Numbered from the stretch's first letter, positions 8,213 through 26,971 are shown. The stretch: 64,000 nucleotides of DNA from Acidobacteriota bacterium (GCA_029565065.1 JAKQOW010000017.1:62001-126000); one strand, 5' to 3'. The notes: a model not told the origin generated them from the letters alone. Numbers and translations are program-made.

Positions 8213-10582
8213 ATGATGATCGTCAACTATCTGAAAACCGCCTGGCGGATGATCGCCCGGCACAAGTTCTACTCCGCGCTGAACGTCGCCGGGCTGGCCG
8301 TGGGCATGGCCACCGTGGGGCTGATCCTGCTCTGGGTGTGGGACGAGTGGCGCTACGACCGGTTCCACGCCCGGGCGGACCGGATCTGCCGCGTCACCGT
8401 CGAGGACCTGTCGGGCGGGGTGGTCGCCCACCAGGCGGGATCGCCGGCGCCGCTCGGGGCTGCCTTGAAGGCGGAGCTGCCGGAGGTCGAGGACTTCGTC
8501 CGGGTGCAGGCCGGCTGGTCGGGCTGGCGGCTTCGGATCGGCGACCGCTATTTCATGGACGAGCGGCTGGCGGCGGCGGATCCTTCCTTCTTTGAGATCT
8601 TCTCCTTCCCCTTCCTTCAGGGGGATCCCCACACCGCCCTGAAAAACCGCCATTCCATCGTGATCACAGAGAGCCTGGCTCGCAAGGCGTTCGGGCAGGA
8701 GAACCCGATGGGGCGGGTGATGAGCATTTCCGATACAGACATGACCGTCACCGGGGTGATCCGCGACATCCCCGCCCAGTCGCACCTCAGCTTCGACTAT
8801 GCCTTCCCGGCGGTGAACATGGCCGCTTGGCGGGAGTCGCAGTTGGACGCCTGGGATTACACCCAGTTCGCCACCTACCTCCTGCTGCGTCCCGACGCCC
8901 GCCTGGAGGCGGTCCGGGAGAAGACGGCCCGGCTCATCCGCAGCCATCTGCCCAAAGCCCAGGGCCGGGTGCACCTGCAGCCCCTGACCGATGTCCATCT
9001 CGGTTCCACCGACATCAACACGTGGATGGTGAAATATCCCGACAAGGGGAACATCGCCCACGTGGCCGTCTTCCTGCTGACCGCCGCGGGCGTCCTGCTG
9101 CTGGCCTGCGTCAATTTCATTAACTTGTCTACCGCCCGGCACGCGGTGCGGGCCAAGGAAGTGGCGGTGCGCAAGGTGGTGGGCGCCGGCCGGCCGGATC
9201 TGTTTCGCCAGTTTCTGGGCGAAACGGGGCTGCTGACGCTGATCGCCCTGGGCCTGGCCGTGGTGTTCATGGAGCTGCTCCTCCCCGCGTTCAATGAGTT
9301 GACAGGCAAACAATTGTCAGTTCTTGGATCGAAGGACGCCACAATCTGGCTGGGACTGGCAGGCATCGCCGCCCTCACCGGTGTGCTGGCGGGAAGCTAT
9401 CCGGCGCTGTTCCTGTCGGCCTTCCCGCCGGTCCAGGTGATCCGGTCGGGGGGAGGATGGGGCGACCGGCGGGGCGGGGGCCTGCGCAAGGCGCTGGTGA
9501 CCCTCCAGTTTGTCTTCACCATTACCCTGTTGATCGTGACTGCGGTCATCTTCAGCCAGCTCCGCTTCATGAAGCAGAAGGATCTCGGCTACGATGCCCG
9601 CCGGGTGGTGACGTTCCCCGGCTGGGGTGGCTTCGAACGGAACTGGGATGCCGCCCGGAACGCCCTGCTGCAGTACCCCGGCATCTCGAGCGTCTGCCAG
9701 GGGATGCCCCCGGCGACGGGCTTCTGGGGGACCACCGAAGTGGACTGGGAGGGGCGGAATCCCAACCAGGAGGTCAAGCTGGCGGCGGATCTCGGGGATT
9801 ACGACTACGCCGCGGTCTTCCGGCTCCAGATGGTTCAGGGACGGTTCTATTCAAGAGACTTCGTCAACGATGACCAGAACTGGGTGGTCAACGAAACGGC
9901 CGTCCGGGCCATGGGCCTGGCCAACCCCGTGGGCCGGTGGCTCAGCTACCGAGGCCGGCGCGGGCGGATCATCGGGGTGGTGAAGGACTATCACGGGGCG
10001 TCGCTCCACGAGCCCATCGGACCCAAGGTCATTCAGTGTGGCCAGGGTTTCTTTGTCTGCGTCCGCTATCGCACCGACGACATCCCCGAGCTGATGGCGT
10101 TCCTGCAGAAGCAGTGGAAGGTCTTCGTGCACGGGGAGAGGTTCCGGTCGGATTTCGTGGACGAGTCCATCGCCGCCTGGTACCAGACCGAGGAGCGGAT
10201 CCAACTGCTCTTCGCGTACTTCACCGGGCTGGCCGTCCTGGTCGCCTCCCTGGGGCTGCTGGGCCTGGCCGCGTTCATGGCCGAGCGCCGCACCAAGGAG
10301 ATCGGGGTGCGCAAGGTGCTGGGGGCGTCCACCACCGGGCTTGTCCTGCTCCTGGTGCGGGATCAGGTCAAGTGGGTGCTGGCGGCGAACCTGTTCGCCT
10401 GGCCGCTGGCCTGGTGGCTGAGCCGGCATTGGCTCGCGGGGTACGCCTATCGCATCGACATGAACTGGCCGGTGTTCGCCCTTTCGGGCGCGCTGGTGCT
10501 GGCCGTGGCCGCGGCCACGGTCAGCGGCCAGGCCCTCCGGGCGGCCTGGTCCCGCCCGGTTGCGGCGTTGCGATACGAATGA
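8213..10582 (+). CDS. MacB/FtsX-type ABC transporter permease (tandem-domain, ~790 aa)
   Basis: The fifth visible permease, 789 residues from the ATG at 8213, which has GAGGA six bases upstream. The frame is open further back to 8099 but that would overlap the preceding gene and lacks conservation. It begins MMIVNYLKTAWRMIARHKF and carries FtsX loops AKEVAVRKVVGA and TKEIGVRKVLGA; it ends RPVAALRYE. Like its siblings it has two periplasmic MacB_PCD-type domains and no nucleotide-binding domain. It closes the array; the following small ORF begins 28 bases later. Confidence 0.93.
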   Translation: MMIVNYLKTAWRMIARHKFYSALNVAGLAVGMATVGLILLWVWDEWRYDRFHARADRICRVTVEDLSGGVVAHQAGSPAPLGAALKAELPEVEDFVRVQAGWSGWRLRIGDRYFMDERLAAADPSFFEIFSFPFLQGDPHTALKNRHSIVITESLARKAFGQENPMGRVMSISDTDMTVTGVIRDIPAQSHLSFDYAFPAVNMAAWRESQLDAWDYTQFATYLLLRPDARLEAVREKTARLIRSHLPKAQGRVHLQPLTDVHLGSTDINTWMVKYPDKGNIAHVAVFLLTAAGVLLLACVNFINLSTARHAVRAKEVAVRKVVGAGRPDLFRQFLGETGLLTLIALGLAVVFMELLLPAFNELTGKQLSVLGSKDATIWLGLAGIAALTGVLAGSYPALFLSAFPPVQVIRSGGGWGDRRGGGLRKALVTLQFVFTITLLIVTAVIFSQLRFMKQKDLGYDARRVVTFPGWGGFERNWDAARNALLQYPGISSVCQGMPPATGFWGTTEVDWEGRNPNQEVKLAADLGDYDYAAVFRLQMVQGRFYSRDFVNDDQNWVVNETAVRAMGLANPVGRWLSYRGRRGRIIGVVKDYHGASLHEPIGPKVIQCGQGFFVCVRYRTDDIPELMAFLQKQWKVFVHGERFRSDFVDESIAAWYQTEERIQLLFAYFTGLAVLVASLGLLGLAAFMAERRTKEIGVRKVLGASTTGLVLLLVRDQVKWVLAANLFAWPLAWWLSRHWLAGYAYRIDMNWPVFALSGALVLAVAAATVSGQALRAAWSRPVAALRYE

Positions 10583-12745: not shown

Positions 12746-15700
12746 CTATCGCTGCCGGCGCGCGCGTTGCTGCATCCGGTCCAGGTAGATGTAAACCACG
12801 GGCGTCAGGTACAGCGTGATCACCTGCGACACCACGAGTCCGCCCACCACCGCCAGCCCCAGCGGCTGGCGCGACTCGCCGCCGGCGCCGAAGCCCACGG
12901 CGATGGGGAGCGTGCCGAAGAACGCCGCCATGGTGGTCATCATGATGGGCCGGAAGCGGATGAGGCAGGCCTGGTAGATGGCCTCGGCGGGCGGCACCTG
13001 CTTCGTGCGCTCGGCGTCCAGCGCGAAGTCGATCATCATGATGGCGTTTTTCTTGACGATGCCCACCAGCATGATGATTCCCACGAAGGCGAAGATGTTC
13101 AGGTCCACCCGGAACAGCAGCAGGGTGACCAGGGCCCCCAGGCCGGCCGACGGCAGGCCCGACAGGATGGTCACCGGGTGGATGAAGCTCTCGTACAGAA
13201 TCCCCAGGACGATGTAGATCACCACCACGGCCATGATCAGGAGCAGACCCATCCCCTTGAGCGACGCCTGGAAGGCCTGCGCCGTGCCCTGGAAGCTCCG
13301 GGTGACCGTGGGCGGCAGCAGATCGGTGGCGGCGCTCTCGATGCGCGTGAGCGCTTCGCCCAGCGACACGCCCGGCCGCAGGTTGAACGAGACGGTCGCG
13401 GCGGGAAGCTGTCCCAGGTGGTTCACCGACAGCGGTCCCACCGCCGGGCGGATCCGGGCCACGGCGTCCAGCGGGACCATCCGGCCGCCCGCAGACTTGA
13501 CGTACAGGTTGGACAGATCGTTCGGCTCCCGCTGCAGCCGCGGTAGCAGCTCCATCACCACGTAATATTGGTTGTCGGGCGCGAACATCGTGGAAATCTG
13601 CCGCGTGCCGAAGGCGGTGTAGAGGACGTCCTCGACCTGGTAGGCGGTCACGCCGAGCGCGGTGGCCTTCTCGCGCAGCAGGTCCACCCGCACTTCCGGA
13701 TTCTTGATGAACAGGTCGCTGTTGACGTCGAGCAGCTCCGGCATGGCGCGGAGCCGCGCTTCGAGCAGGGGGGCATACCGGTACAGCTCCGCGGTGTCGG
13801 TGCTCTGGATGGAGTACTGGTAGAGCGCCCGGGTCTGCTGGCCACCGATGGTGATGGTGGGCGGGTTCTGAAGGTAGACCTGGATGCCGGGGATCTGGGC
13901 GAGCTTCGGGCGCAGCCGGTTGATGATCTCGTCGGCGGTGCTGGTCCGTTCCTGACGCGGCTTGAGGCGCAGGAACACGTTGCCAGCGTTGAGGCCGGAC
14001 GCGCCGCGGGCGCCGCAGCTGGACATCATCCCCTCGACGTCCGGATCCTGGCGGATGATCTCGGTGACCTCCCGCTGGTGGCGGACCATCGACTCGAAGG
14101 AGATGCCCTGGATCGCCTCGGTGAAACCGCGGACCTGGCCGGTGTCCTCGGTGGGGATGAAGCCCTTGGGTACGACGTTAAAGAGCCAGGCGGTGACGCC
14201 CAGGATCACGAAGGACAGCAGCAGCGTGACCAGCTTGTGGCGGATGGCGAACCGGAGCGTGGTGTCGTAGAAACGCAGCATCGCGTCGAACACCTTCTCG
14301 GAGGCCCGGTAGAGGGCGCCGTGGCGCACCTCACCGGGCGGACGCAGGAACCGCGAGGCCAGCATCGGCGTCAGGGTGAGGGACACGATGCCCGAGATCA
14401 GGATCGCCGCCGCGATGGTCACGGCGAACTCATGGAACAGCCGGCCCAGGATGCCGCTCATGAAGAGCACCGGGATGAAGACGGCGGCCAGCGAGATGGT
14501 CATGGAGACGATGGTGAAGCCGATCTCCTTCGAGCCGTCGAGGGCGGCCTGCATCGGCGTCTTGCCCATCTCGATGTGGCGGACGATGTTCTCCAGCATG
14601 ACGATGGCGTCGTCCACCACGAAGCCCACCGACAGGGTCAGCGCCATGAGCGTCAGGTTGTTCACCGAAAAGTCGGCCAGGTACATCACGGCGAACGTGC
14701 CCACGATGGAGAACGGCAGCGCCAGGCTGGGGATGATCGTAGCCGAAATGTTCCGTAGGAACAGAAAGATCACCAGGATGACCAGGCACAGCGTGAGCAC
14801 CAGGGTGAACTTGACGTCGTTGACCGATTCGCGGATCGACTGGGAGCGGTCGAAGATGACGCCGAGTTCCACCGACGCGGGGAGCTGTTTCTGGAACACC
14901 GGGAGGATGTCCCGGATGGCCTGGACGATGGCGACGGTGTTGGTGCCGGGCTGGCGCTGGATGGCCAGGATGACCGCCCGCTTGGCGCCCTCGCGGGTCA
15001 CGTGCCAGGCGGCGACCTTGTCGTTCTCGACGCTGTCGATCGCCTCGCCGAGGTCCCGCAGGTACACCGGCGCGCCCTCGCGGTAGGTGACGATCAGCCC
15101 GCCGTAGGCGGCGGCCTCGAGCAGCTGCCCGTCCGACTCCACGGTGTAGGCGCGGTGCGTGCCGTAGAGCACGCCGCTGGGGAGGTTGACGTTGCCGTTG
15201 CGGATGGCGTCGGCCACCTCGTTGATGCCGATGTCCCGGCTGGTGAGCCGGTCGGGATCGAGCCGGACCCGGACGGCGTACTTCTGGGAACCGTACACCT
15301 GCACCTGGGCCACGCCGTTGACCATGGAAATCCGCTCGCCCAGAGTGGTGGCGGCATACTCGTTGAGGGTGGACAGCGGCAGCGTGTCCGACTTCATGGC
15401 GAGCATGAGGATCGGCGAATCGGCCGGGTTGACCTTCCGGTAGGACGGCGGCGTGGGCATGTCGCGGGGCAGCTGCCGTTGGGCTTGGGCGATGGCCGCC
15501 TGCACGTCCTGGGCGGCGGCGTCGAGGTCCCGCTCCAGCGCGAACTGGAGGGTGATCTGCGTGGAGCCGATGCCGCTCGACGAGGTCATGTTGTCGATGC
15601 CGGCAATGGTGGAGAACTGCCGCTCCAGCGGCAGGGCCACCGTCGAGGCCATGGTCTCGGGGCTGGCGCCGGGCAGGCTGGCCGAGACGGTGATGGTGGG

Positions 15701-15826
15701 GAAATCGACGTTCGGCAGGTCGTTGACCGGCAGGGTGATGTAGGCCATGACGCCGAAGAGGATGATCCCCAGCATCACCAGGACGGTGGTGACGGGCCGG
15801 CGGATGAACAGGGCCGGAATGTTCAT
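12746..15826 (-). CDS. RND efflux pump inner-membrane permease (HAE1/AcrB-MdtBC type)
   Basis: A 1026-residue proton-driven pump subunit. It begins MNIPALFIRRPVTTVLVM, the typical RND start, and its first helix is followed by the large periplasmic porter domain. The proton-relay residues are in place: the aspartate pair D405-D406 in GFVVDDAIVMLEN and lysine(s) 925-926 in GIVKKNAIMMIDF, matching AcrB D407/D408 and K940. Its ATG overlaps the adaptor's stop as ATGA, so it is the last gene of a coupled outer-membrane factor, adaptor, pump operon. Sequence tone (NDLPNVDFPTITVSASLPGA) is closest to MdtB/MdtC-like drug pumps rather than metal pumps. Substrate not determinable. Confidence 0.96.
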   Translation of the reverse strand: MNIPALFIRRPVTTVLVMLGIILFGVMAYITLPVNDLPNVDFPTITVSASLPGASPETMASTVALPLERQFSTIAGIDNMTSSSGIGSTQITLQFALERDLDAAAQDVQAAIAQAQRQLPRDMPTPPSYRKVNPADSPILMLAMKSDTLPLSTLNEYAATTLGERISMVNGVAQVQVYGSQKYAVRVRLDPDRLTSRDIGINEVADAIRNGNVNLPSGVLYGTHRAYTVESDGQLLEAAAYGGLIVTYREGAPVYLRDLGEAIDSVENDKVAAWHVTREGAKRAVILAIQRQPGTNTVAIVQAIRDILPVFQKQLPASVELGVIFDRSQSIRESVNDVKFTLVLTLCLVILVIFLFLRNISATIIPSLALPFSIVGTFAVMYLADFSVNNLTLMALTLSVGFVVDDAIVMLENIVRHIEMGKTPMQAALDGSKEIGFTIVSMTISLAAVFIPVLFMSGILGRLFHEFAVTIAAAILISGIVSLTLTPMLASRFLRPPGEVRHGALYRASEKVFDAMLRFYDTTLRFAIRHKLVTLLLSFVILGVTAWLFNVVPKGFIPTEDTGQVRGFTEAIQGISFESMVRHQREVTEIIRQDPDVEGMMSSCGARGASGLNAGNVFLRLKPRQERTSTADEIINRLRPKLAQIPGIQVYLQNPPTITIGGQQTRALYQYSIQSTDTAELYRYAPLLEARLRAMPELLDVNSDLFIKNPEVRVDLLREKATALGVTAYQVEDVLYTAFGTRQISTMFAPDNQYYVVMELLPRLQREPNDLSNLYVKSAGGRMVPLDAVARIRPAVGPLSVNHLGQLPAATVSFNLRPGVSLGEALTRIESAATDLLPPTVTRSFQGTAQAFQASLKGMGLLLIMAVVVIYIVLGILYESFIHPVTILSGLPSAGLGALVTLLLFRVDLNIFAFVGIIMLVGIVKKNAIMMIDFALDAERTKQVPPAEAIYQACLIRFRPIMMTTMAAFFGTLPIAVGFGAGGESRQPLGLAVVGGLVVSQVITLYLTPVVYIYLDRMQQRARRQR

Positions 15827-17025
15827 GGCTGGATGACCTCGGGCTCCACCTTCTGGCGGATGGTGATCCGGGAGCCCGGGGTCAGCCGCATCTGGCCGTC
15901 CACGATGACGGTGTCGTCGGCGCGCAGGCCGCCGCGGATGACCGCCTCGCCGGCCATGATCCGGTCGACGGTGACCTGGCGCACCGCGGCGGTGTTGCCC
16001 GCCGCCACGACGTAGACCAGCGACCCCTCCTGGCTGGGCACCACCGCCTGGGCGGGCACCACCAGCGCCTGCGGCTCGGTATCCAGCACCAGCAGCACAT
16101 CGACGAACAGGCCGGGCCACAGCACGCCGCTGGCATTGTCGCACGTGGCTTTCAGGTGGATGGTGCCCGTGCCGGATGCGACGGTGCTGTCCAGGAAGGT
16201 GACGGCGCCGCGCTCGGCCGGAGCGCCGCTGTCGGGGATAGAGGCGGAAACGGTCATGTGGCCGCGGCGCATCTGCTCCCGTAGGCGGGGCAGGACCTGC
16301 TCGGGCACGGTGAAATCCACGTAGATGGGGCGGATCTGGTAGATCTGGACGAGGGTGGTTTCGTTGAGCCGGGCCATGTTGCCGGCGTGGACGAGGAGCT
16401 CGCCCGTCCGCCCGCTGGCAGGGGCGGTGACGGTGCAGTAGCCGAGATCCAGGCGGGCATTGAGCAGTTCAGCCTCGTCGGCCCGCACCGACGCTTCGTC
16501 GGCCTGCAGGGTGGCCTGCAGCGCTTCGGCGTTGGCCTTAACCGTGTCGTACTGCTGGCGGGTGACATAGTCCTTGGCCACCAGCTCGGCGTAGCGCTGC
16601 ACGTCGGCCTCGGCGTTGCGCCACAGGGCGCGGTCGCGCTCCAGGTTGGCCCGGGTTCGCGCCAGCGCCGCCTCGGCGCGCTGCACCGCCGCCGCGAAGG
16701 GGGCCGGGTCGATGGTGAACAGGGTCTGGCCGCGGCGGACCTCCTGACCCTCGCTGAAGTGGACGCTGAGGATGGGGCCGCTGACCTGGGTCTTGACCGC
16801 CACGGTGGAGTACGCCTCGACTGTGCCGATGGCCTTGAGCTGAACCGGCATCGGCTTCTGGACCACCGGCGCGGTGGTGACGGCCACGGGCGGCGCGGTC
16901 CGCGGGGTGTTGTCGGCGGGTTTGCCGGTGCAGCCGACGCCGCCGGCGGCGAGTCCGGCCAGCAGGACGGCGGGGACGGCCGTGCGCAAGTGGATCAGCA
17001 GGCGAATGCAGGCGATGCGTGTCAT
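15823..17025 (-). CDS. RND efflux periplasmic adaptor subunit (membrane fusion protein)
   Basis: 400 residues. An N-terminal hydrophobic signal ends GGVGC at Cys32, an imperfect lipobox that suggests a lipid-anchored adaptor. Then come a barrel-sandwich half (VSGPILSVHFSEGQEVRRGQ), a helical hairpin of about 90 Ala/Arg/Glu-rich residues, the second half (TVTAPASGRTGELLVH), a beta-barrel and a membrane-proximal domain. It bridges the pump and the TolC-like channel. Start chosen at 17025 because it forms ATGA with the stop of the upstream TolC gene; its own stop forms ATGA with the pump. No metal-binding domain, unlike the adaptor at 60483-61997. Confidence 0.95.
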   Translation of the reverse strand: MTRIACIRLLIHLRTAVPAVLLAGLAAGGVGCTGKPADNTPRTAPPVAVTTAPVVQKPMPVQLKAIGTVEAYSTVAVKTQVSGPILSVHFSEGQEVRRGQTLFTIDPAPFAAAVQRAEAALARTRANLERDRALWRNAEADVQRYAELVAKDYVTRQQYDTVKANAEALQATLQADEASVRADEAELLNARLDLGYCTVTAPASGRTGELLVHAGNMARLNETTLVQIYQIRPIYVDFTVPEQVLPRLREQMRRGHMTVSASIPDSGAPAERGAVTFLDSTVASGTGTIHLKATCDNASGVLWPGLFVDVLLVLDTEPQALVVPAQAVVPSQEGSLVYVVAAGNTAAVRQVTVDRIMAGEAVIRGGLRADDTVIVDGQMRLTPGSRITIRQKVEPEVIQP

Positions 17026-18563
17026 GGTTGTCCTTCGGGGGATCGGGGTGGAGCGGGCGGATCGGGCGGCGCGAGTGGTGCAACCGCCGCGGCGGGGCCG
17101 GCGTCGAGCAACTGGCCGGTGTTGCGGCCCAGCCGGGCCATAGCCAGCAGCCACTCGGTCCGGGCGCGGGTCTGCTCCGAGCGGGCGGCCTCCAGGGTGC
17201 GCTGGGCGGACAGCAGGTCCAGAATGTCGCCCACGCCGGCGCGGTAGCGGTTGAGCGCCACGTCGTACGACTGCGATGCGCTGCCCAGCAGTTCGTCGGT
17301 GGTGCGGATCTTCTCGCCGGCGGTCTGCAGGGCGTAGAAGCTGCGCCACACCTCGTACGCCACCGTCTGCGCCAGGCTGTGGACGCGCGCCGCGGCCGCC
17401 GCCGACTGTTCGCTCGCCTGAATGACGTTGTTGGTGTGGGTGTACCCGGTGAAGATGGGCAACCGGAGCGTGAGGCCCACCGAGTAGTTGTCCAGCAGCG
17501 TGTCCCAGCCGGTATTGTACAGGGCGCCGGCGCCGGCGGTGGCGGCCACCGTCACGCCGCCGGCAGCCTGCACGCTGCGCACGCGGGCCTCGGCGCCGAG
17601 CGCCTCCGCCCGGGCGGCGGCCAGGTCGGGACGGAGACGCTGGGCGACCTCGATGAATCGGTCCACCTCGCCGGCGGCCGCGTCGGCCGGGATCTCCGGC
17701 TGGAAGTCGGCCAGGCGGATCACCGTGTTGGCCGGCAGCCCGACGGCCGCGGCCAGCGCGCCCTCCAGCGTGCGCAGGTCGCCGGTGGCCGTCTGCAGGG
17801 CCAGCCGGGCCTGGGCCAGGGCGGAGCGCGCCTGGAGCACGTCGGCGATGGTGGCCACGCCGGCGCGATGGCGCTCCGTGGCGGATTCGAGCACCGCCTG
17901 GGCCTCGCGCACCGCCGTCTCCTCCGCCGCGACGAGGGTCTTCACGCCGTGGTGGAGGTAGTACGCCTCCAGCACCAGGAGCATGACGTCCTCAAGCACG
18001 GCGCGATGGGTCCAGTTGGCGGCCCGCAGCGCTTGGCGGGCCTCTTCCAGGTCCGCCGCCCGTCCGCCGGAATCGTACAGGAGATAATTGACCGTGATGG
18101 ACGGCCCGAACGCGCCCTGCCATTCCTCGTACTTCGACGAGCGGGAGCCGTACCCCGCCTGGGCGAGGCCTTCCAGATCGACGGTGGGGAGATAGGCGCC
18201 GCCCCGACTTGCCTTGGCCGCCGCCGCCGCCCGGGCGGCGTGCCAGGCGGCCCGGGTGCTGGGATTGTGGCGCAGGGCGAAATCGATCAGGTCACCGAGC
18301 CGCCAGATGGCGTCGGCGGAAAAATCAGCCGGAGTTCCCTCCGGCGCGAGCAGGGCCGGGAGCGCGGCGGGATCGGGTGTCCAGGGGGACGCCGGGTTGG
18401 CCGAAGTGTCCCCCGGCGCCGGATGCCAGGGGCGGTACTTCACCGGGCGGCCGGGGTCATCGCCGGCCGCGGCGGGCAAAGCCAGGGCCAGTGCGGCCGC
18501 CAGGCTGACGAGCCGGACGACGGACCGGCAGAACCGGATGCTAGGCAGACGATTCAGGCACAC
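17022..18563 (-). CDS. TolC-family outer-membrane efflux protein
   Basis: 513 residues, GTG start with GAGGAG eight bases upstream. A signal peptide (LVSLAAALALALPAAAG) precedes a Pro-rich linker of about 60 residues and then the two structurally repeated TolC halves rich in Ala/Arg/Glu coiled helices, with strands such as SITVNYLLYDSG and VGLTLRLPIFTG that build the beta-barrel. It is the first gene of the three-gene efflux operon, so transcription probably starts in the 114-base gap upstream, where a 14-bp palindrome lies. The C-terminus has a Pro/Ala-rich tail (APPDPPAPPRSPEGQ) of unknown role. Confidence 0.94.
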   Translation of the reverse strand: MCLNRLPSIRFCRSVVRLVSLAAALALALPAAAGDDPGRPVKYRPWHPAPGDTSANPASPWTPDPAALPALLAPEGTPADFSADAIWRLGDLIDFALRHNPSTRAAWHAARAAAAAKASRGGAYLPTVDLEGLAQAGYGSRSSKYEEWQGAFGPSITVNYLLYDSGGRAADLEEARQALRAANWTHRAVLEDVMLLVLEAYYLHHGVKTLVAAEETAVREAQAVLESATERHRAGVATIADVLQARSALAQARLALQTATGDLRTLEGALAAAVGLPANTVIRLADFQPEIPADAAAGEVDRFIEVAQRLRPDLAAARAEALGAEARVRSVQAAGGVTVAATAGAGALYNTGWDTLLDNYSVGLTLRLPIFTGYTHTNNVIQASEQSAAAAARVHSLAQTVAYEVWRSFYALQTAGEKIRTTDELLGSASQSYDVALNRYRAGVGDILDLLSAQRTLEAARSEQTRARTEWLLAMARLGRNTGQLLDAGPAAAVAPLAPPDPPAPPRSPEGQP

Positions 18564-20465: not shown

Positions 20466-22046
20466 TCAGCCTCTGCCCGTCGGCGGAGCGTGGCGGCGCA
20501 ACCAGCGGACGGGCGTGCCGCCGGCGCCGGCGGTGGCCAGCCGGAACAGCGCCCGGAGTATCATGGCCACAGGGGGCAGCCAACGCCCGCCTGGCGCAAA
20601 GAACCGCCGGTGCAGCCGCAGGATCTCCGCCTCGGTCAGCGTCGCGGTATCGTAGCCGAGTGATGGCGCCGCAGCGGCGGAGGCGGCGGCAAAATCGCCG
20701 AGGTTCCGCCGGCGCAGGCGCACGCCGTAGCGCTCCGGCGATTCGAACCATGGCGCGCCCGGCTCCATCTCGATGGGGAAGACGTGCACGCTCCGGATGC
20801 AGGCGAACCGCCGTCGCAGCCGGCGGATGTAGTCGCGGGTGGCCAGTGCCCCGGCGGCCGTCTCACCGGGGAGCCCCAGCGCGAAGTAGAGCACGGTGGG
20901 CGCGCGGAGCTGGTTCAGCAGGTCCAGCCTTTCCTCCAGTTCGGCATTGGTGAACGGGTAGGCCCGGTGGATCCGCCGGAGCGACTCGTCCGCGGTCTCC
21001 GGCGACAGAATCACCCGCGAGGCGTGGTGCAGCGCCCGCCGGAACAGGCGGCACAGCTCGGGGGAGGGGAGGCCGAAGAACTCGAAATCCGTCCGCACCG
21101 CCGGCCGCAGCCGCTCCAGCGCCGCGACGAGGGCGGCGGTGTGGCCCTCGCGGGCGGGATCCGGATCGAAACAGAAATAGAACCGCTCGATGCCCCAGTC
21201 GGTCCGAAGCCGCGCCACCGATTCGGCCACCCGTGCGGGGTTACGCCGCGCCGTCACCGTGCGGCCCGTGAGGCGGCGGACGCCGGGGCCGCTCCCGCCG
21301 CACCAGGTGCACGAGCCCGGGCACCCGCGGCCGGCGAACACGCCGTGGATCACCGCGTCCCGCTGACCGCGGCCGAGCCGCTGCACCAGCCGCGCCGATC
21401 CATCCCACGGGACCAGCCACTGGAGGCGGCAGACGGTTTCGGGGTGGCGGTAAAAGCGCAGGGCGGCGAAATCCGCCGTGTCCAACTCGGCGGCGTCCGC
21501 GCAGTAGCTGATGGGGTTGTGCCGCACCACGCCGCCGGTGTCGCGCCAGGTCAGGTTGGGAATGTCCATCCATTCGCTTTGCCCGCTTTGCACGGCCGCC
21601 AGGAGTTCCGCCAGCGGCCGCTCCCCTTCGCCCCGCACCACGGCGTCGACGAACGGGCACTCCGCAACGATCTCCCCGGCGAAACGGCCGGCGGTGTACC
21701 CGCCCAGCACCACCTGCACGCGCGGCCGGGCCGCCTTGAGCTGCCGGGCGGCTTCCAGGGTGTCGTGGGTTTGGGGGTGCCAATGGAGAGAGAACGCCGC
21801 CAGCGCCGCCCCGGATGCGCCGACGTAGTCCGCCAGCAAAAAGCGCGGGTCCAGCAGCTTCTCCGCGCCCAGATGGACGATCCGGCAGCGCCGACCCCGC
21901 CTCTCCAATTCCCCGGCCAGTGCCAGCAGCCCGGCGGCGGGAAAGTTGACCCGGGCGTGCGGCCCGATCATCGGGTCGCGGAGGAGCAGTCGGGGCACAT
22001 GCACCAGCACAGCGTCCAGGTTCAAGTCGGCGGTGTCCATGTGCAT
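20466..22046 (-). CDS. B12-binding radical SAM protein
   Basis: 526 residues. Residues ~10-150 form a Rossmann-like cobalamin-binding domain (LVHVPRLLLRDP, VQVVLGGYTAGRFAGEIV, VDAVVRGEGERPLAELL). The radical SAM core follows with its [4Fe-4S] ligands C242, C246 and C249 in GRGCPGSCTWCGG, then RVILSPETADESLRRI and YFALGLPGET, typical of class B/BchE-like enzymes. The helical C-terminus has no extra cysteine cluster. Such enzymes methylate unreactive carbons or rearrange substrates. It is divergent from the small protein plus SPASM enzyme at 22243-23877, which hints at shared regulation. Substrate unknown. Confidence 0.88.
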   Translation of the reverse strand: MHMDTADLNLDAVLVHVPRLLLRDPMIGPHARVNFPAAGLLALAGELERRGRRCRIVHLGAEKLLDPRFLLADYVGASGAALAAFSLHWHPQTHDTLEAARQLKAARPRVQVVLGGYTAGRFAGEIVAECPFVDAVVRGEGERPLAELLAAVQSGQSEWMDIPNLTWRDTGGVVRHNPISYCADAAELDTADFAALRFYRHPETVCRLQWLVPWDGSARLVQRLGRGQRDAVIHGVFAGRGCPGSCTWCGGSGPGVRRLTGRTVTARRNPARVAESVARLRTDWGIERFYFCFDPDPAREGHTAALVAALERLRPAVRTDFEFFGLPSPELCRLFRRALHHASRVILSPETADESLRRIHRAYPFTNAELEERLDLLNQLRAPTVLYFALGLPGETAAGALATRDYIRRLRRRFACIRSVHVFPIEMEPGAPWFESPERYGVRLRRRNLGDFAAASAAAAPSLGYDTATLTEAEILRLHRRFFAPGGRWLPPVAMILRALFRLATAGAGGTPVRWLRRHAPPTGRG

Positions 22047-22162
22047 AGCCGGTCATCCTCGTGTTGCCCGCTCGCGGGGGCGGCGGTGAAAGCGTTGGCG
22101 TCGGCGTATGATCCTGTGCTATTAATACCACACGTTTCATCACAGGCATGCCGGGTCGGCGA

Positions 22163-22187
22163 ACGACGGCGGATAGAACTCCGTCGT
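22163..22187. promoter_or_regulatory. inverted repeat in radical SAM divergent region
   Basis: Arms ACGACGG and CCGTCGT are separated by 11 bases in the 196-base gap between the two divergent radical SAM transcription units. It may be an operator or a 5' hairpin of the small-protein transcript; nothing links it to a known regulator. Confidence 0.25.
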
Positions 22188-22242
22188 CGCCGCACAGGCG
22201 ACGGCGTGCGCGGATCGGAAAATCTGACTTGGAGGTGGCTGG

Positions 22243-22635
22243 ATGGGTGGAGAAACTGCATATCCCAATGTCCACGTCTGGCTGGATCAGATTCAGGCGC
22301 TGCTGGCGGCGGCACCGGCGGGCGCGCCGCTGACGGATGCCCGGCGGGCGCTGGACATCGTGCGACGGATGCTGACGCCGCCGGCGCCGGGCAGCCGGGC
22401 GGCGGCGGGCGAAGTTCCGGCCGAAGGCGTCCGGTTGATCTATCTGCTGGGCTGGATCAAGGCGGGTGTCGCAGCCGGCCGGCCGGTCGCCTCCCCTGAG
22501 GTGGCAGCGGCCGCGGATCGCGCCGTGACCGGTCTCGAGACCATCCTCGGTTCACCTGAATCCTCGAACACGCGCGACTGCGCGGAGTACATGAGCCGAC
22601 CGTCGCCGTGTCCGCCGGCCCGGCCTGGAATCTGA
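22243..22635 (+). CDS. small Cys-containing protein next to radical SAM/SPASM enzyme
   Basis: 130 residues, ATG at 22243 with GGAGG eight bases upstream. Residues ~8-100 are helical and Ala-rich (VWLDQIQALLAAAP, VRLIYLLGWIKAGVAAG) with no signal peptide; the last ~25 are polar and hold the only cysteines, C113 (RDCAEYM) and C123 (SPCPPARPGI). That split, a helical leader-like body and a short Cys/Pro/Ser tail, would suit a peptide substrate of the SPASM enzyme encoded 141 bases downstream, but it is long for a RiPP precursor and no leader motif is recognised. It may equally be an ordinary helper protein. Confidence 0.6.
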   Translation: MGGETAYPNVHVWLDQIQALLAAAPAGAPLTDARRALDIVRRMLTPPAPGSRAAAGEVPAEGVRLIYLLGWIKAGVAAGRPVASPEVAAAADRAVTGLETILGSPESSNTRDCAEYMSRPSPCPPARPGI

Positions 22636-22776
22636 TCCGGCCACGCCCACCGGAACGATCCGGGCGGATCCGGCCGACGATCCGGACATGACCGGCCGGT
22701 CCCGTCCGGCGGTTTCCGGCGGGTGTCGGGGCGTCAGGGCGACCCGCCGCCCTCGGCCCCGCATACGGTTCCTTCA

Positions 22777-23877
22777 ATGCGCTGGACGCACCTCACCCTG
22801 ATGATGACCGAGCGGTGCAACTACCGCTGCGTCTACTGCTACCAGCAACGGTCGCCGCGGGATCTGGCCGATGACCGGATCCGACAAGCCTGCGCGCGGC
22901 TCCTGCCGCTGGCGGCGGAACGCTGCCGGGTGACGTTTTTCGGCGGAGAGCCGGCGCTGGTGTTCCCGGCGATCCGGCGCACCGTCCGGCGGATCGAGGC
23001 GTGGAACCGCGGCGGGAAACGAACCCTGACTTACGGCATCACCACGAACGGCAGTCTCTTGGGACCCCGCGAGCTGGCATTCCTCGATGCCCACCGGTTC
23101 CGGGTGGTGCTGAGCCATGACGGCGTGAACCAGGATCGTCACCGCGCTGCCGGCAGCGCCGCCGGACTGGCCCGGCTGCTGAAATCCCTGGGCGACTATC
23201 CGGGTATCCGACTGGCGGTCAACTGCGTGGTCACCCGGGACACGGTTCGGGATCTGCCGGCGACGGTGCGCCTCCTGCTCGGTTCGGGCGTCTCCCGCCT
23301 GATTCTCGCCTACGACCGGCAGTCGCCGTGGCGCGACGCGGAGATCGTCTCGCTGGCGGCGGCGCTGCGGGACGTGCGCCCGCTGTTGCCGCCGCCCGAC
23401 CCGGAAGACGAAGCAACTCCCGGGGCATCCGGACAAACGGGCGGCGAGCGGCGGATCTTCCGCTGCCCCGCCGGTGAGACGCGGCTGGCGCTTGCGGCCG
23501 ACGGAACCGTCTGGGGCTGCCATCTGTTCGCCGATTATTTCCGCGGCCGGGAACACACCGATGAATACACCCGCTACTGCCTCGGAGACATCCGCGGGCT
23601 CGATCCGGAGGGCCTGGCTGGTGGCGACGGGCCGCTCGCTCCGTACCGTCAGCTCGTCATGAACAACGGCCTGACGCCGGGCGGCTTCTGCATGTTCTGC
23701 GGTGATCTCTTCGAATGCGCCATCTGCCCATTGGATGCGGCCCTGAGTTCGGGGCGCATCGGCCGGATCCCGGAATGGTACTGCCGGTTTGAGCGGATCC
23801 TGCGGAGTGGGCCCGTGCCGGAACTCGGCGCGCCGGATGGCCGGGAAGCCGGGACGGCGCTCCGGGCGGATGCCTGA
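22777..23877 (+). CDS. radical SAM/SPASM domain protein (putative peptide or protein maturase)
   Basis: 366 residues from the ATG at 22777, just before the conserved core; a GTG at 22723 would add 18 Pro/Ser-rich residues. The radical SAM cluster ligands are C14, C18 and C21 (CNYRCVYC). The C-terminus carries a textbook SPASM pattern: C230-x12-G-x4-C248, then C305, C308, C314, C317 (CxxCx5CxxC) and C336, enough for two auxiliary [4Fe-4S] clusters. SPASM enzymes modify peptides (RiPP crosslinks, thioethers) or convert Cys/Ser of sulfatases to formylglycine; no sulfatase lies here. The neighbouring small protein is the obvious candidate partner. Confidence 0.88.
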   Translation: MRWTHLTLMMTERCNYRCVYCYQQRSPRDLADDRIRQACARLLPLAAERCRVTFFGGEPALVFPAIRRTVRRIEAWNRGGKRTLTYGITTNGSLLGPRELAFLDAHRFRVVLSHDGVNQDRHRAAGSAAGLARLLKSLGDYPGIRLAVNCVVTRDTVRDLPATVRLLLGSGVSRLILAYDRQSPWRDAEIVSLAAALRDVRPLLPPPDPEDEATPGASGQTGGERRIFRCPAGETRLALAADGTVWGCHLFADYFRGREHTDEYTRYCLGDIRGLDPEGLAGGDGPLAPYRQLVMNNGLTPGGFCMFCGDLFECAICPLDAALSSGRIGRIPEWYCRFERILRSGPVPELGAPDGREAGTALRADA

Positions 23878-23893: not shown

Positions 23894-26770
23894 CTACGGC
23901 AGGCGGCCGGCGGCGGCCTCCTTCAATTCCGGACGATTGGGATCCGCCTCCTGCCAGACGTCCAAAAATCGCCCGAAATGGCGGCGGGCGTCCTGAGCCT
24001 TCCCCTGCTGCCGGGCGCACCGGCCCAGGTTCAGGAGCGCGAGGGCGTAGCTGTCGCTGGTGTTGAGGCGGCTGGCGGCCGAGTCGCGCAGCCGGGTGAG
24101 CGTGCCCACAGCCCGGTCCACCCGCCCGCCCGCCCGGTAGGCTTCGGCGAGCAGCGGCAGGTAGAACGACGGGCTGCCGAAGAACCGGACGTCGGGCGTC
24201 CAGTCGAGGAGCGGGAGCGCCAGCTCCATCAAGGCGGCGGCCCGGCGGGGATCGCCCCGATGCAGGGCCATGGCGGCCGACAGGTGGTGGTAGTGGCGCC
24301 GCAGCTTTGCCATGCCGGTCGATGCCTCCAGGGCCTGCAGGCGCCGGGCGGTGTCCGCCGCCGCCTCGACCCGTCCCTGCGCCAGGAGCGCCAGGCCCTG
24401 CAAGTGGAGTGCGAGGGCGTCGTACTCGGGATCCAGCAGCGCCGGCGCCGCGGCGCCGGCGGACTCGGCGTGGCGCAGCGCGCCGGCGGCGTCGTCGCGC
24501 CGCAGCTCCAGATAAGCGGCCAGCAGGGTCAGGTCCACGCGGATGGCATTTTCACCGAGCGACGCCGCTTCGCGCAGCCCCGCATCGAGCACCTGGGCGC
24601 TCTCGACGTAGCGGCCCCGACCGATGAGGAACTCCGCCAGGACATAATGACCCATCAACCGCTGATCGGGATCGGCATGCCGGATCCGCTCACGGAGGAT
24701 CCGCTCGGCCTCGCCAGGCCGGCCGCAGAGGTTCTCCACGGCGGCCAGCCGGACGTGAAGCCAGCTCTTCTCGCGCGGCAGGTCCAGGCACTGCATCAAC
24801 TCCTGGCGTGCCTGCTGGTACTGGCTTTCCAGTAGGTAGGTCCAGGCCAGCCGACCCTGGTAAGGCATCGGATCCTTGAACAGCGGACGGTTGCGCACGA
24901 GGAGCGTTCGGGCCGAGCCGGCCAGGCCCTGACGGATATCGATCTCCGCCAAGTTGAGCACGGCCAGGTGATCGGTGGGATCGGCCATCGCCGCCCCGCG
25001 AAACCACCGGCCGGCCTCCGGCCAGTCCTCGGCGTTCCGGTAGATCCCGCCCACCAGCCGCTTGATCCCGGCGTCATTGGGATAGAGGGCGTCAAACCGC
25101 CGGCCCAGTTCCGCCCGCTTGAGGTAGTTGACCTCGGTGTACTTGGAATACAGCAACTCCAGGTTGAATCGCTCGCGCGGCGTGAGCCGCGCCTTGAAGG
25201 CCAGGGCTTTCTGCATGTATTGGCGGTCGTTTTCCAGCTGGCGCAGGTGGCCGTAGTTGACCGACATCCGGGCGTAGGCCATGGCGAACTCGGGATCGAG
25301 GGCCGTGGCCTGCTCCAGACGGGCGTTGCTCTCGGTGAACCGGCCGCTGGCGTACAGCTTGTCGGCCTCGATGTACAACCGCAACGCCTCGCGCGAAGAG
25401 GTGGTGACGTCCCGCAGCGCGGTGTCAATGTCGCCGGCGATGGATTCGGGCGAGAATCGGAGCGCCTCTTTGATCTTGGGGGTGAGCGCGTCGATGAGGT
25501 CCTGCGGATCCGCCGGCTCGGCCAGCTCCACCTGGGCCGAGGCGATGTACTCCTGCGTGGTCGCGTCGAGAATCGCCGCCTGGAGGCGGCACGCGCTTCC
25601 CTCCATATACATCACCCGAACCCGGTGGGTGGCTCCCTCGGGCTCTTTGATCACCGACAGGTAGCGGGACTGGAAGAGGTCAACCTCCAGCAGGAAGGTC
25701 AGGATCTCGCTCAGGTTGAGGGCATCGCCCACCGGGCTGGCGATCTTGACGGGCTCGACGAAGATCTTCGGCTTGCGGGCGGTGGCGGTCTCGCCGCCGG
25801 GGTGCCGTTCGGCCGTCGGCGGAGCCGTCAGCCGCGTGATGATGAAGTAACCGGCCGCCGCCGCGAGGAGTAGGAGCAGCGTGGCCAGTTGCCAGCCCTG
25901 GCGGCGGGTCATCCGGGCCGCCGTCCGGCGGAGTGTGTCGGACGCGACGCCGTCGCGGCTGTTCCGGTAATCGATGAGCTGGTCCAGCACGCCGGCCATG
26001 GACGGCGCGCGCTGCTCCGGCGGCCGGGTCAGGGTGGCGACGACGATCCGGATCAGTTCGGGGGGCGTGTCGGGCCGGACGTCGGTCACCGGCGCCGGCG
26101 TCTCGTTGAGGATCGTGTGGACCGTCGCCTTGGTGTAGGGCGCCGCGAACGGATTGCGGCCGGTCAGCATCTCGTAGAGGACGACGCCGAACGACCAGAT
26201 GTCGGTGCGGGCATCCACCGACAGGCCGCGGGCCTGCTCCGGCGACATGTACGCCGTCGTGCCTGCGGTGCCTTCCGACTCGGTGGTGTGCGTGTGGCCG
26301 GACAGCTTGGCCAGCCCGAAGTCGAGTATCTTGACGTCGCCGGTGCGGGTGATCATGATGTTGGCGGGCTTGATGTCGCGGTGGACCACGCCGGCCTGGT
26401 GCGCGCCGGCCAGCCCCTGGGCGGTCTGGATGGCGACGGAGAGGATCTCCTCGAAGGACATGGAACCGCGGGCAAGCCGGTCCTTGAGCGTCTCCCCCTC
26501 GTAGTGCACCATGCAGATGAACATCCGTCCGTCGGCGGTCTCGCCGATCTCGTGAACGCCGCAGATGTTGGGGTGGTCCAGGGCGGAGGCCGCCCGGGCC
26601 TCCTGGACGAGCCGTCGGCGGGCTGTGGAGTCCCGGGTCAATTCGAGAGGCAGGAATTTCAGGGCCACGCGACGGTTGAGCTGGGTGTCCTCGGCCTTGT
26701 ACACCTCGCCCATCCCACCGGCGCCGATCCGCTCCAGAATCCGGTAATGGCCGATGGTGCGGCCGATCAT
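23894..26770 (-). CDS. transmembrane Ser/Thr protein kinase with TPR-rich C-terminus
   Basis: 958 residues from MIGRTIGHYRILERIGAGG. The kinase domain (~8-270) has the Gly loop, K38, the catalytic HRD aspartate D132 in VVHRDIKPANIM, and the DFG aspartate D150, so it should be active. One membrane helix lies near 291-312 (LLLLLAAAAGYFII). Outside it come a ~130-residue domain with a TolB-like feel (IFVEPVKIASP) and about ten TPR-like helical pairs to the C-terminus. The layout is characteristic of Acidobacteriota-type kinases. The frame is open 43 codons upstream, but those residues are not conserved. It converges with the SPASM gene, 16 bases apart. Ligand and targets unknown. Confidence 0.93.
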   Translation of the reverse strand: MIGRTIGHYRILERIGAGGMGEVYKAEDTQLNRRVALKFLPLELTRDSTARRRLVQEARAASALDHPNICGVHEIGETADGRMFICMVHYEGETLKDRLARGSMSFEEILSVAIQTAQGLAGAHQAGVVHRDIKPANIMITRTGDVKILDFGLAKLSGHTHTTESEGTAGTTAYMSPEQARGLSVDARTDIWSFGVVLYEMLTGRNPFAAPYTKATVHTILNETPAPVTDVRPDTPPELIRIVVATLTRPPEQRAPSMAGVLDQLIDYRNSRDGVASDTLRRTAARMTRRQGWQLATLLLLLAAAAGYFIITRLTAPPTAERHPGGETATARKPKIFVEPVKIASPVGDALNLSEILTFLLEVDLFQSRYLSVIKEPEGATHRVRVMYMEGSACRLQAAILDATTQEYIASAQVELAEPADPQDLIDALTPKIKEALRFSPESIAGDIDTALRDVTTSSREALRLYIEADKLYASGRFTESNARLEQATALDPEFAMAYARMSVNYGHLRQLENDRQYMQKALAFKARLTPRERFNLELLYSKYTEVNYLKRAELGRRFDALYPNDAGIKRLVGGIYRNAEDWPEAGRWFRGAAMADPTDHLAVLNLAEIDIRQGLAGSARTLLVRNRPLFKDPMPYQGRLAWTYLLESQYQQARQELMQCLDLPREKSWLHVRLAAVENLCGRPGEAERILRERIRHADPDQRLMGHYVLAEFLIGRGRYVESAQVLDAGLREAASLGENAIRVDLTLLAAYLELRRDDAAGALRHAESAGAAAPALLDPEYDALALHLQGLALLAQGRVEAAADTARRLQALEASTGMAKLRRHYHHLSAAMALHRGDPRRAAALMELALPLLDWTPDVRFFGSPSFYLPLLAEAYRAGGRVDRAVGTLTRLRDSAASRLNTSDSYALALLNLGRCARQQGKAQDARRHFGRFLDVWQEADPNRPELKEAAAGRLP

Positions 26771-26971
26771 GTCCGTATTGTCAGGGGTCCGGCCCGCTCG
26801 ATCGCCCGGATCTTCCACCCTACCTACTCCTACGCGAAACCAATGACCTCCATTGTAGGTCAACTCGGGGAGCGGGGCAAGGTCTGTGACGCAGCCCAAC
26901 GGTGGCCGCAGGGCTGCGTCAACCTGAGTACGGGGTCGCCGCAGGCGGGTGCGGGGCGGAACGGGGGGGCG

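Follow-up and report, generated by a model that had tools for sequence, protein, structure and literature searches.

A probable three-part peptide module of precursor, radical SAM/SPASM maturase and membrane receptor in uncultured Acidobacteriota

In the AgrBDCA system, the genes for a precursor peptide, its modifying enzyme (AgrB), and a membrane sensor lie next to one another. Among peptides modified by radical S-adenosylmethionine (SAM) enzymes, the ranthipeptides derived from SCIFF precursors have been linked to quorum sensing, according to the account of Chen et al. (2020) given in PMC8326336, and the substrate motif of the related enzyme PapB has been defined as Cys-X3-Asp/Glu (Cys-Xn-Asp; PMC9413430). 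Many radical SAM enzymes acting on ribosomally synthesized and post-translationally modified peptides (RiPPs) contain a RiPP recognition element (RRE) (PMC8326336), which we do not take to be universal. Here we describe a locus in a window of 64 kb, that is, the whole stretch of DNA analysed, which lies on a 225-kb contig from the phylum Acidobacteriota. In this locus, the genes for a small Cys-tailed protein and for a radical SAM enzyme with a SPASM domain stand beside that for a receptor-type Ser/Thr kinase. We read the three as a peptide module consisting of a precursor, a SPASM maturase, and a membrane receptor, which would yield a modified peptide, probably Cys-crosslinked, with a dedicated receptor (probability, roughly 0.6). 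Sequence comparison provides the precursor family and its conserved Cys, the co-occurrence of precursor and enzyme, and the position and orthology of the receptor; the chemistry, cleavage, export, and ligand role we infer.

An earlier note on this DNA had reported two radical SAM genes (20466-22046, − strand, and the SPASM gene, + strand) and, between them, a gene for a small protein (22243-22635, +), and all three are borne out. The small protein, our candidate precursor (22243..22635, +), consists of 130 amino acid residues with just two Cys residues (C113 and C123), both in the C-terminal tail SNTRDCAEYMSRPSPCPPARPGI, as that note had said. The gene is considered real, because it is under purifying selection (dN/dS, the ratio of nonsynonymous to synonymous divergence, 0.22–0.36 among three species) and because a profile built from other genera only matches its product (E 5.5e-7, in two domains; next of the 951 six-frame pieces, E 0.23). 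Among these three species of the window's genus (overall identity, 80–89%), the last 23 residues are unchanged and the N-terminal part differs; dN/dS for residues 105–130 is 0 to 0.1. In an AlphaFold 2 (AF2) model, the leader folds into two helical hairpins, one of residues 10–44 (22270..22374, +; helices 10–23 and 31–44; predicted local distance difference test score (pLDDT), ~81–94), which is matched by the precursor profile, and the other of residues 65–102 (22435..22548, +; helices 65–79 and 85–102), in agreement with the two profile domains; most relatives have a single hairpin. The hairpins are followed by the putative core tail, residues 108–130 (22564..22632, +; pLDDT, ~57). No Pfam or NCBIfam family was found for the small protein, TY-Chap3 (E 0.13) being rejected as noise, and a fold search of its model against the PDB gave no match below E 0.001. 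A direct sequence search reached only the congeners besides weak matches; those outside the genus in the first search (L004-L007, E 4.5e-4 to 0.01) were taken as noise.

The adjoining enzyme of 366 residues (22777..23877, +) contains the radical SAM motif CX3CX2C in the form CNYRCVYC and, as the earlier note had it, a complete SPASM domain with all seven Cys residues, which are invariant in 15 homologues. Thus, the radical SAM motif and the auxiliary-cluster cysteines of a radical SAM/SPASM RiPP enzyme are both present. ATG 22777 was chosen as the start codon over GTG 22723, since the DNA preceding 22777 contains indels between congeners; large indels separate the stop of the small gene from this ATG, and both coding regions align cleanly. 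The closest solved structure entry is 5wgg (CteB; profile E 1.5e-32), and, of the curated models, PapB scores best for the 15 enzymes tested. Membership in the PapB family (NF047865) was rejected by the score (102.9 bits for the window enzyme and 132.5 bits for that of L036, against a cut-off of 340 bits) and by the absence of the Cys-X3-Asp/Glu motif; the next-best curated models, the maturases of Nif11-type precursors, CcpM, and QhpD, scored far under their cut-offs. Pfam at E values up to 1 shows only the radical SAM and Fer4_12 domains, the former beginning near the N-terminus, and neither a cis-encoded nor a PqqD-like RRE was found, no dedicated whole-genome RRE search having been run.

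The precursor family and the enzyme were then compared across a sample of 396 genomes of the phylum (the genomes named here are metagenome-assembled genomes (MAGs), that of L047 being at chromosome level). The enzyme is present in 17 of them, 14 lying beyond the window's genus with 30–36% identity, and the precursor profile finds the same 17 genomes and one marginal match (E 7.6e-4). The hypergeometric figure for this co-occurrence, which ignores relatedness, is ~6e-29, and the locus counts are not independent, as several loci come from one genus. In G037, the enzyme lies at a contig end and the precursor on a different contig. A scan of genome collections gave at least 13 further loci, all of them, among the matches listed, in Acidobacteriota or 'Ca. 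Aminicenantes' MAGs. In the ranking of the listed matches, there is an abrupt fall from E 2e-59 to 7e-31, and a tree separates the enzyme family from the next-best enzymes (support, 96/85).

Next to the enzyme gene of relatives lies an open reading frame (ORF) of 63–123 residues with a near-terminal Cys. As the first collection of these ORFs had been selected for a tail Cys, the only unfiltered test is the search with a leader-only profile, from which the tails were removed. At 27 of the 30 loci, this profile detected one or two small ORFs adjoining the SPASM gene, all with a Cys 8–20 residues from the C-terminus, and the two genes are thus adjacent at every locus where both were detected; no such ORF was detected at L044, at L048, or at L020, where the contig stops at the enzyme. 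In 63 control loci with other SPASM enzymes (711 kb), there was no match below E 0.05. The profile also recovered the precursor of L055, which the Cys-filtered scan had missed; the apparent lack of a precursor there was rejected as an artefact of taking the first start codon. Two precursor genes each are found in L038, L051, and L052. Separately, the SPASM homologue of L048 (3845-4948), without precursor or receptor, adjoins a gene full of zinc-ribbon-like repeats; L048 and L051 come from the same MAG, and the L048 enzyme may act in trans.

The 30 relatives have diverged helical leaders and short tails with one invariant Cys, corresponding to C123 of the window protein and usually occurring as C-x(3-5)-P, Pro being found 4–6 residues past the Cys in 25 of the 30 tails. 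Examples are SPCPPARPGI in the window, NPCPGARPRWII in L045, DPCPFGNPKK in L033, GCPRETPIIR in L040, and KCTEHIPTLFGE in L052. In L051, the core unit EPGCLGRPIADR(T/S) appears twice within one protein, and the second gene ends in DPGCAGRPIADRS; such a duplicated core is the pattern expected for a multicore precursor. Of the two Cys residues on which the earlier note had focused, C123 is thus invariant in the family, whereas C113 is confined to the genus. A leader, a Cys-bearing tail, and a co-inherited adjacent enzyme would together be the expected appearance of a RiPP precursor and its maturase. These results show that the homologues are not widespread without the enzyme and that the tail holds a conserved residue, and the small protein is very probably the substrate of the adjoining SPASM enzyme. 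The suggestion of the earlier note is supported in this part; its other part, a joint action of two radical SAM enzymes, is not, as described below.

A side observation concerns the enzyme genes of L021 (~8840-8900) and, at the same site, of L041, L042, and L047, in which the SPASM frame breaks at an identical G-T9 run located between the radical SAM and GGEP motifs; the frame is recovered with one additional T or by a −1 shift. These four genes belong to the DNA-binding receptor class described below and come from several genera. The conserved length of the run speaks for programmed slippage in transcription, or a programmed frameshift, over an error of sequencing.

Convergent with the maturase gene is that for a receptor-type Ser/Thr kinase (23894..26899, −) with one predicted membrane segment and a TPR sensor region (Pkinase, E 1.5e-49, plus TPRs). 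The range considered previously, 20466-23877, was too short in that it omits this gene (23894-26899, −), which we read as part of the system; with it, the RiPP-like pair, unexplained by itself, becomes a probable module for peptide signalling. A large signalling protein is the immediate neighbour of the pair at 26 of 29 loci (L020, with its cut contig, was set aside), comparable signalling genes in the remaining flanks numbering about 6. All 24 neighbours scanned have a predicted membrane segment, nearly always between the output and sensor parts, and the side of the membrane faced by the sensor was assigned from its position relative to this segment. Pfam gives the class Ser/Thr kinase plus TPR, to which the window protein and, by homology, nine others belong; it further distinguishes a Reg_prop propeller with a Ser/Thr kinase, Reg_prop with histidine kinase, receiver, and AraC domains, and Reg_prop with SpoIIE. 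The fifth class combines TPRs with an N-terminal region that was read from sequence, without a Pfam hit, as a DNA-binding winged helix. Gene order follows the class: the receptor gene is convergent with the enzyme gene in the window type, overlaps or abuts the precursor gene in the DNA-binding type (~22 bp overlap in L041), and, in the propeller-kinase type, closely follows the precursor gene in the same orientation. In several of the propeller-kinase loci (L019 10441-12947 and homologous loci), genes that we read from sequence, without Pfam hits, as CsgG-like and amidase-like were also observed downstream of the SPASM gene.

The window genome has ~36 kinase-like matches. When the SPASM-linked kinase of L035, a distant relative, was compared with this genome, the window kinase was the best match over the full length (E 1.4e-103; next, 3e-60). 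With that of L045, the window kinase matched as two segments of 183 and 166 bits, covering the kinase and TPR parts, whose sum is above the 239 bits of the best single match. These matches argue for a conserved partner rather than a chance neighbour, and the receptor probably belongs to the system, a claim that we hold less firmly than that for the substrate.

In the mechanism we propose, the small protein would be a precursor with a helical-hairpin leader and a C-terminal core around the one invariant Cys. The SPASM enzyme would modify this core, most likely by joining the Cys to a nearby residue through a thioether bond, with the leader as its handle and without an RRE. By analogy, the attachment of the Cys sulfur as a thioether has about an even chance of being correct; it is suggested because the nearest known relatives of the enzyme, PapB and CteB, make thioethers. 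Presumably, the tail would then be cleaved by a protease encoded elsewhere and exported by a machinery likewise supplied from elsewhere, and the mature tail would act as ligand or partner on the membrane receptor of the neighbouring gene; in the window, this is the Ser/Thr kinase with its apparently extracytoplasmic TPR domain. That the receptor senses the mature peptide is a tentative proposal. More tentative still is the wider idea of an undescribed mode of bacterial signalling. Peptides crosslinked by radical SAM enzymes would here be the ligands of membrane receptors dedicated to them, some of these being eukaryote-like Ser/Thr kinases with a TPR sensor, and the sensor and output parts would have been swapped in evolution while the peptide and maturase were kept.

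Several points weigh against the proposed module. As the earlier note had cautioned, no RRE, protease, or dedicated exporter is found adjacent to the pair. Kinases of this sort are common in these genomes, and the enzyme loci L044 and L048 have neither precursor nor receptor nearby. The leader-only profile, our sole unfiltered test, was itself trained mostly on the Cys-filtered sequences. The tails share no conserved acceptor for a thioether, and 17 of the 30, including that of the window, have no Asp/Glu after the Cys, so that PapB-like Cys-to-Asp chemistry is not indicated. Finally, a resistance-nodulation-division (RND) efflux operon near the window precursor is not a general feature of the loci. 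This set, comprising a pump, a membrane-fusion protein, and a TolC-like outer-membrane protein (12746-18563, −; 4–9 kb from the precursor), is a possible export route, as a candidate only. TolC-like and membrane-fusion-like genes were likewise noticed downstream in L021, and a membrane-fusion-like gene each in L041 and L044.

The lack of an adjacent protease or exporter would also fit a small protein that is never released, acting instead as a processed or redox-active subunit or as a regulator of the signalling neighbour, with its Cys tail altered as in quinohemoprotein maturation. The leader is well folded in the AF2 model and is also under purifying selection, and the model for QhpD maturation ranks among the enzyme's better matches. 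However, the repeated core unit of L051 and the paralogous precursors better fit a released or multi-copy peptide, most relatives have a leader of only one short hairpin, and the tails differ widely; we regard this explanation as unlikely. A released peptide could alternatively be an antimicrobial or another effector RiPP, with the signalling neighbour merely controlling its production. Streptococcal radical SAM RiPPs (RaS-RiPPs) lie next to regulators of quorum sensing, and inhibition of other bacteria is known for some of them (PMC13361665); a receptor-type neighbour could regulate production. No conserved exporter or immunity gene is adjacent, however, the tail is the same in three species, in contrast to fast-changing bacteriocins, and almost every neighbour is a sensor, the outputs being diverse, making an effector somewhat less likely again than a non-released protein.

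Equally improbable is the two-enzyme RiPP pathway proposed in the earlier note, in which a B12-dependent and the SPASM enzyme both modify the small protein. The B12-binding radical SAM enzyme of 526 residues (20466..22046, −; Pfam B12-binding, E 3.7e-11, and radical SAM, E 3.9e-11; cluster motif CPGSCTWC) is encoded divergently from the precursor in all three congeners, across a region with a perfectly conserved near-palindrome, and the window tail is longer than most and contains an extra Cys. Its orthologues are, however, limited to the window's genus; it is found at no other locus of the precursor/SPASM family, and distant relatives (30–42%) occur in six other genomes of the sample, all without the precursor/enzyme pair. 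Moreover, its synonymous (dS) and nonsynonymous (dN) divergence are unlike those of its neighbours. By this distribution, it was rejected as a core part of the system; it may be an additional tailoring enzyme of this genus or a neighbour unconnected with the pair. It is not a member of TIGR04190 (Ta0216-type B12 radical SAM protein), scoring 197 bits against a cut-off of 500 bits.

The near-palindrome TGTGCTATTAATACCACA (22115-22132) is part of a 23-bp block TCCTGTGCTATTAATACCACACG (22112..22134), a candidate operator or promoter, which is perfectly conserved in the three-species alignment, the rest of the intergenic region having diverged. It occurs once in the genome with 2 mismatches allowed; it was therefore rejected as a regulon operator and is local at best. 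Between the window and L009 (G002), dS is ~0.1–0.2 from the second hairpin through the SPASM gene and 0.5–0.6 in the first hairpin and the B12 gene, and this shift in silent divergence suggests interspecies recombination inside the small gene. The last alternative, an unrelated housekeeping gene lying between radical SAM genes, as the absence of a known family might allow, is already contradicted: the small protein occurs in those 17 of the 396 genomes that also carry the enzyme, in every case either beside it or at the end of a contig, and its Cys is invariant. This alternative has next to no probability.

Collectively, the locus of these uncultured Acidobacteriota has the appearance of a system not described so far, by which a modified peptide is made and perhaps sensed. 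To our knowledge, few ligands have been identified for bacterial receptor Ser/Thr kinases whose sensors are TPRs or propellers; if our reading is true, a gene pair that produces a defined, modified peptide and is inherited side by side with such receptors would provide a ligand candidate open to direct testing. The phylum would also gain a family of radical SAM peptides with a leader type of its own, and a set of small proteins now without a Pfam or NCBIfam match would be accounted for. In the open-licence literature searched, we found neither a matching system nor a characterised radical SAM RiPP from this phylum.

Among known systems, the locus resembles the ranthipeptides of the PapB and SCIFF/CteB types in that a SPASM enzyme adjoins a precursor with a Cys-bearing C-terminal core, PapB being the best model and CteB the nearest structure. 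It differs from them in having no Cys-X3-Asp/Glu motif, usually one Cys per core, no RRE seen, an unrelated leader, and a dedicated membrane receptor as neighbour; the crosslink that defines the ranthipeptide class, from a Cys sulfur to a β or γ carbon, is here suggested by analogy. Nif11-type, CcpM, and QhpD systems are more distant, as the enzyme scores far under their cut-offs and the precursors match no leader family in Pfam or NCBIfam. As in the streptococcal RaS-RiPP loci with Rgg/SHP, a radical SAM peptide adjoins a putative peptide-sensing regulator (PMC13361665); the signal there is, however, a separate SHP peptide that is imported and bound intracellularly by Rgg, whereas the neighbour here resembles a membrane receptor, and the present loci showed no SHP-like gene. 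The arrangement of adjacent genes for a precursor, a modifying enzyme, and a membrane sensor is that of ComQXPA (PMC4008528). The locus is not a member of that system, since a radical SAM enzyme takes the place of the isoprenyl transferase ComQ, as it does of AgrB in Agr, the precursor is not of the ComX type, and no part is shown to be homologous. Furthermore, unlike in ComQXPA and Agr, the outputs of the receptors vary here among Ser/Thr kinase, histidine kinase-AraC, SpoIIE, and DNA-binding types, to which the peptide may, by analogy with those systems, act as the signal.

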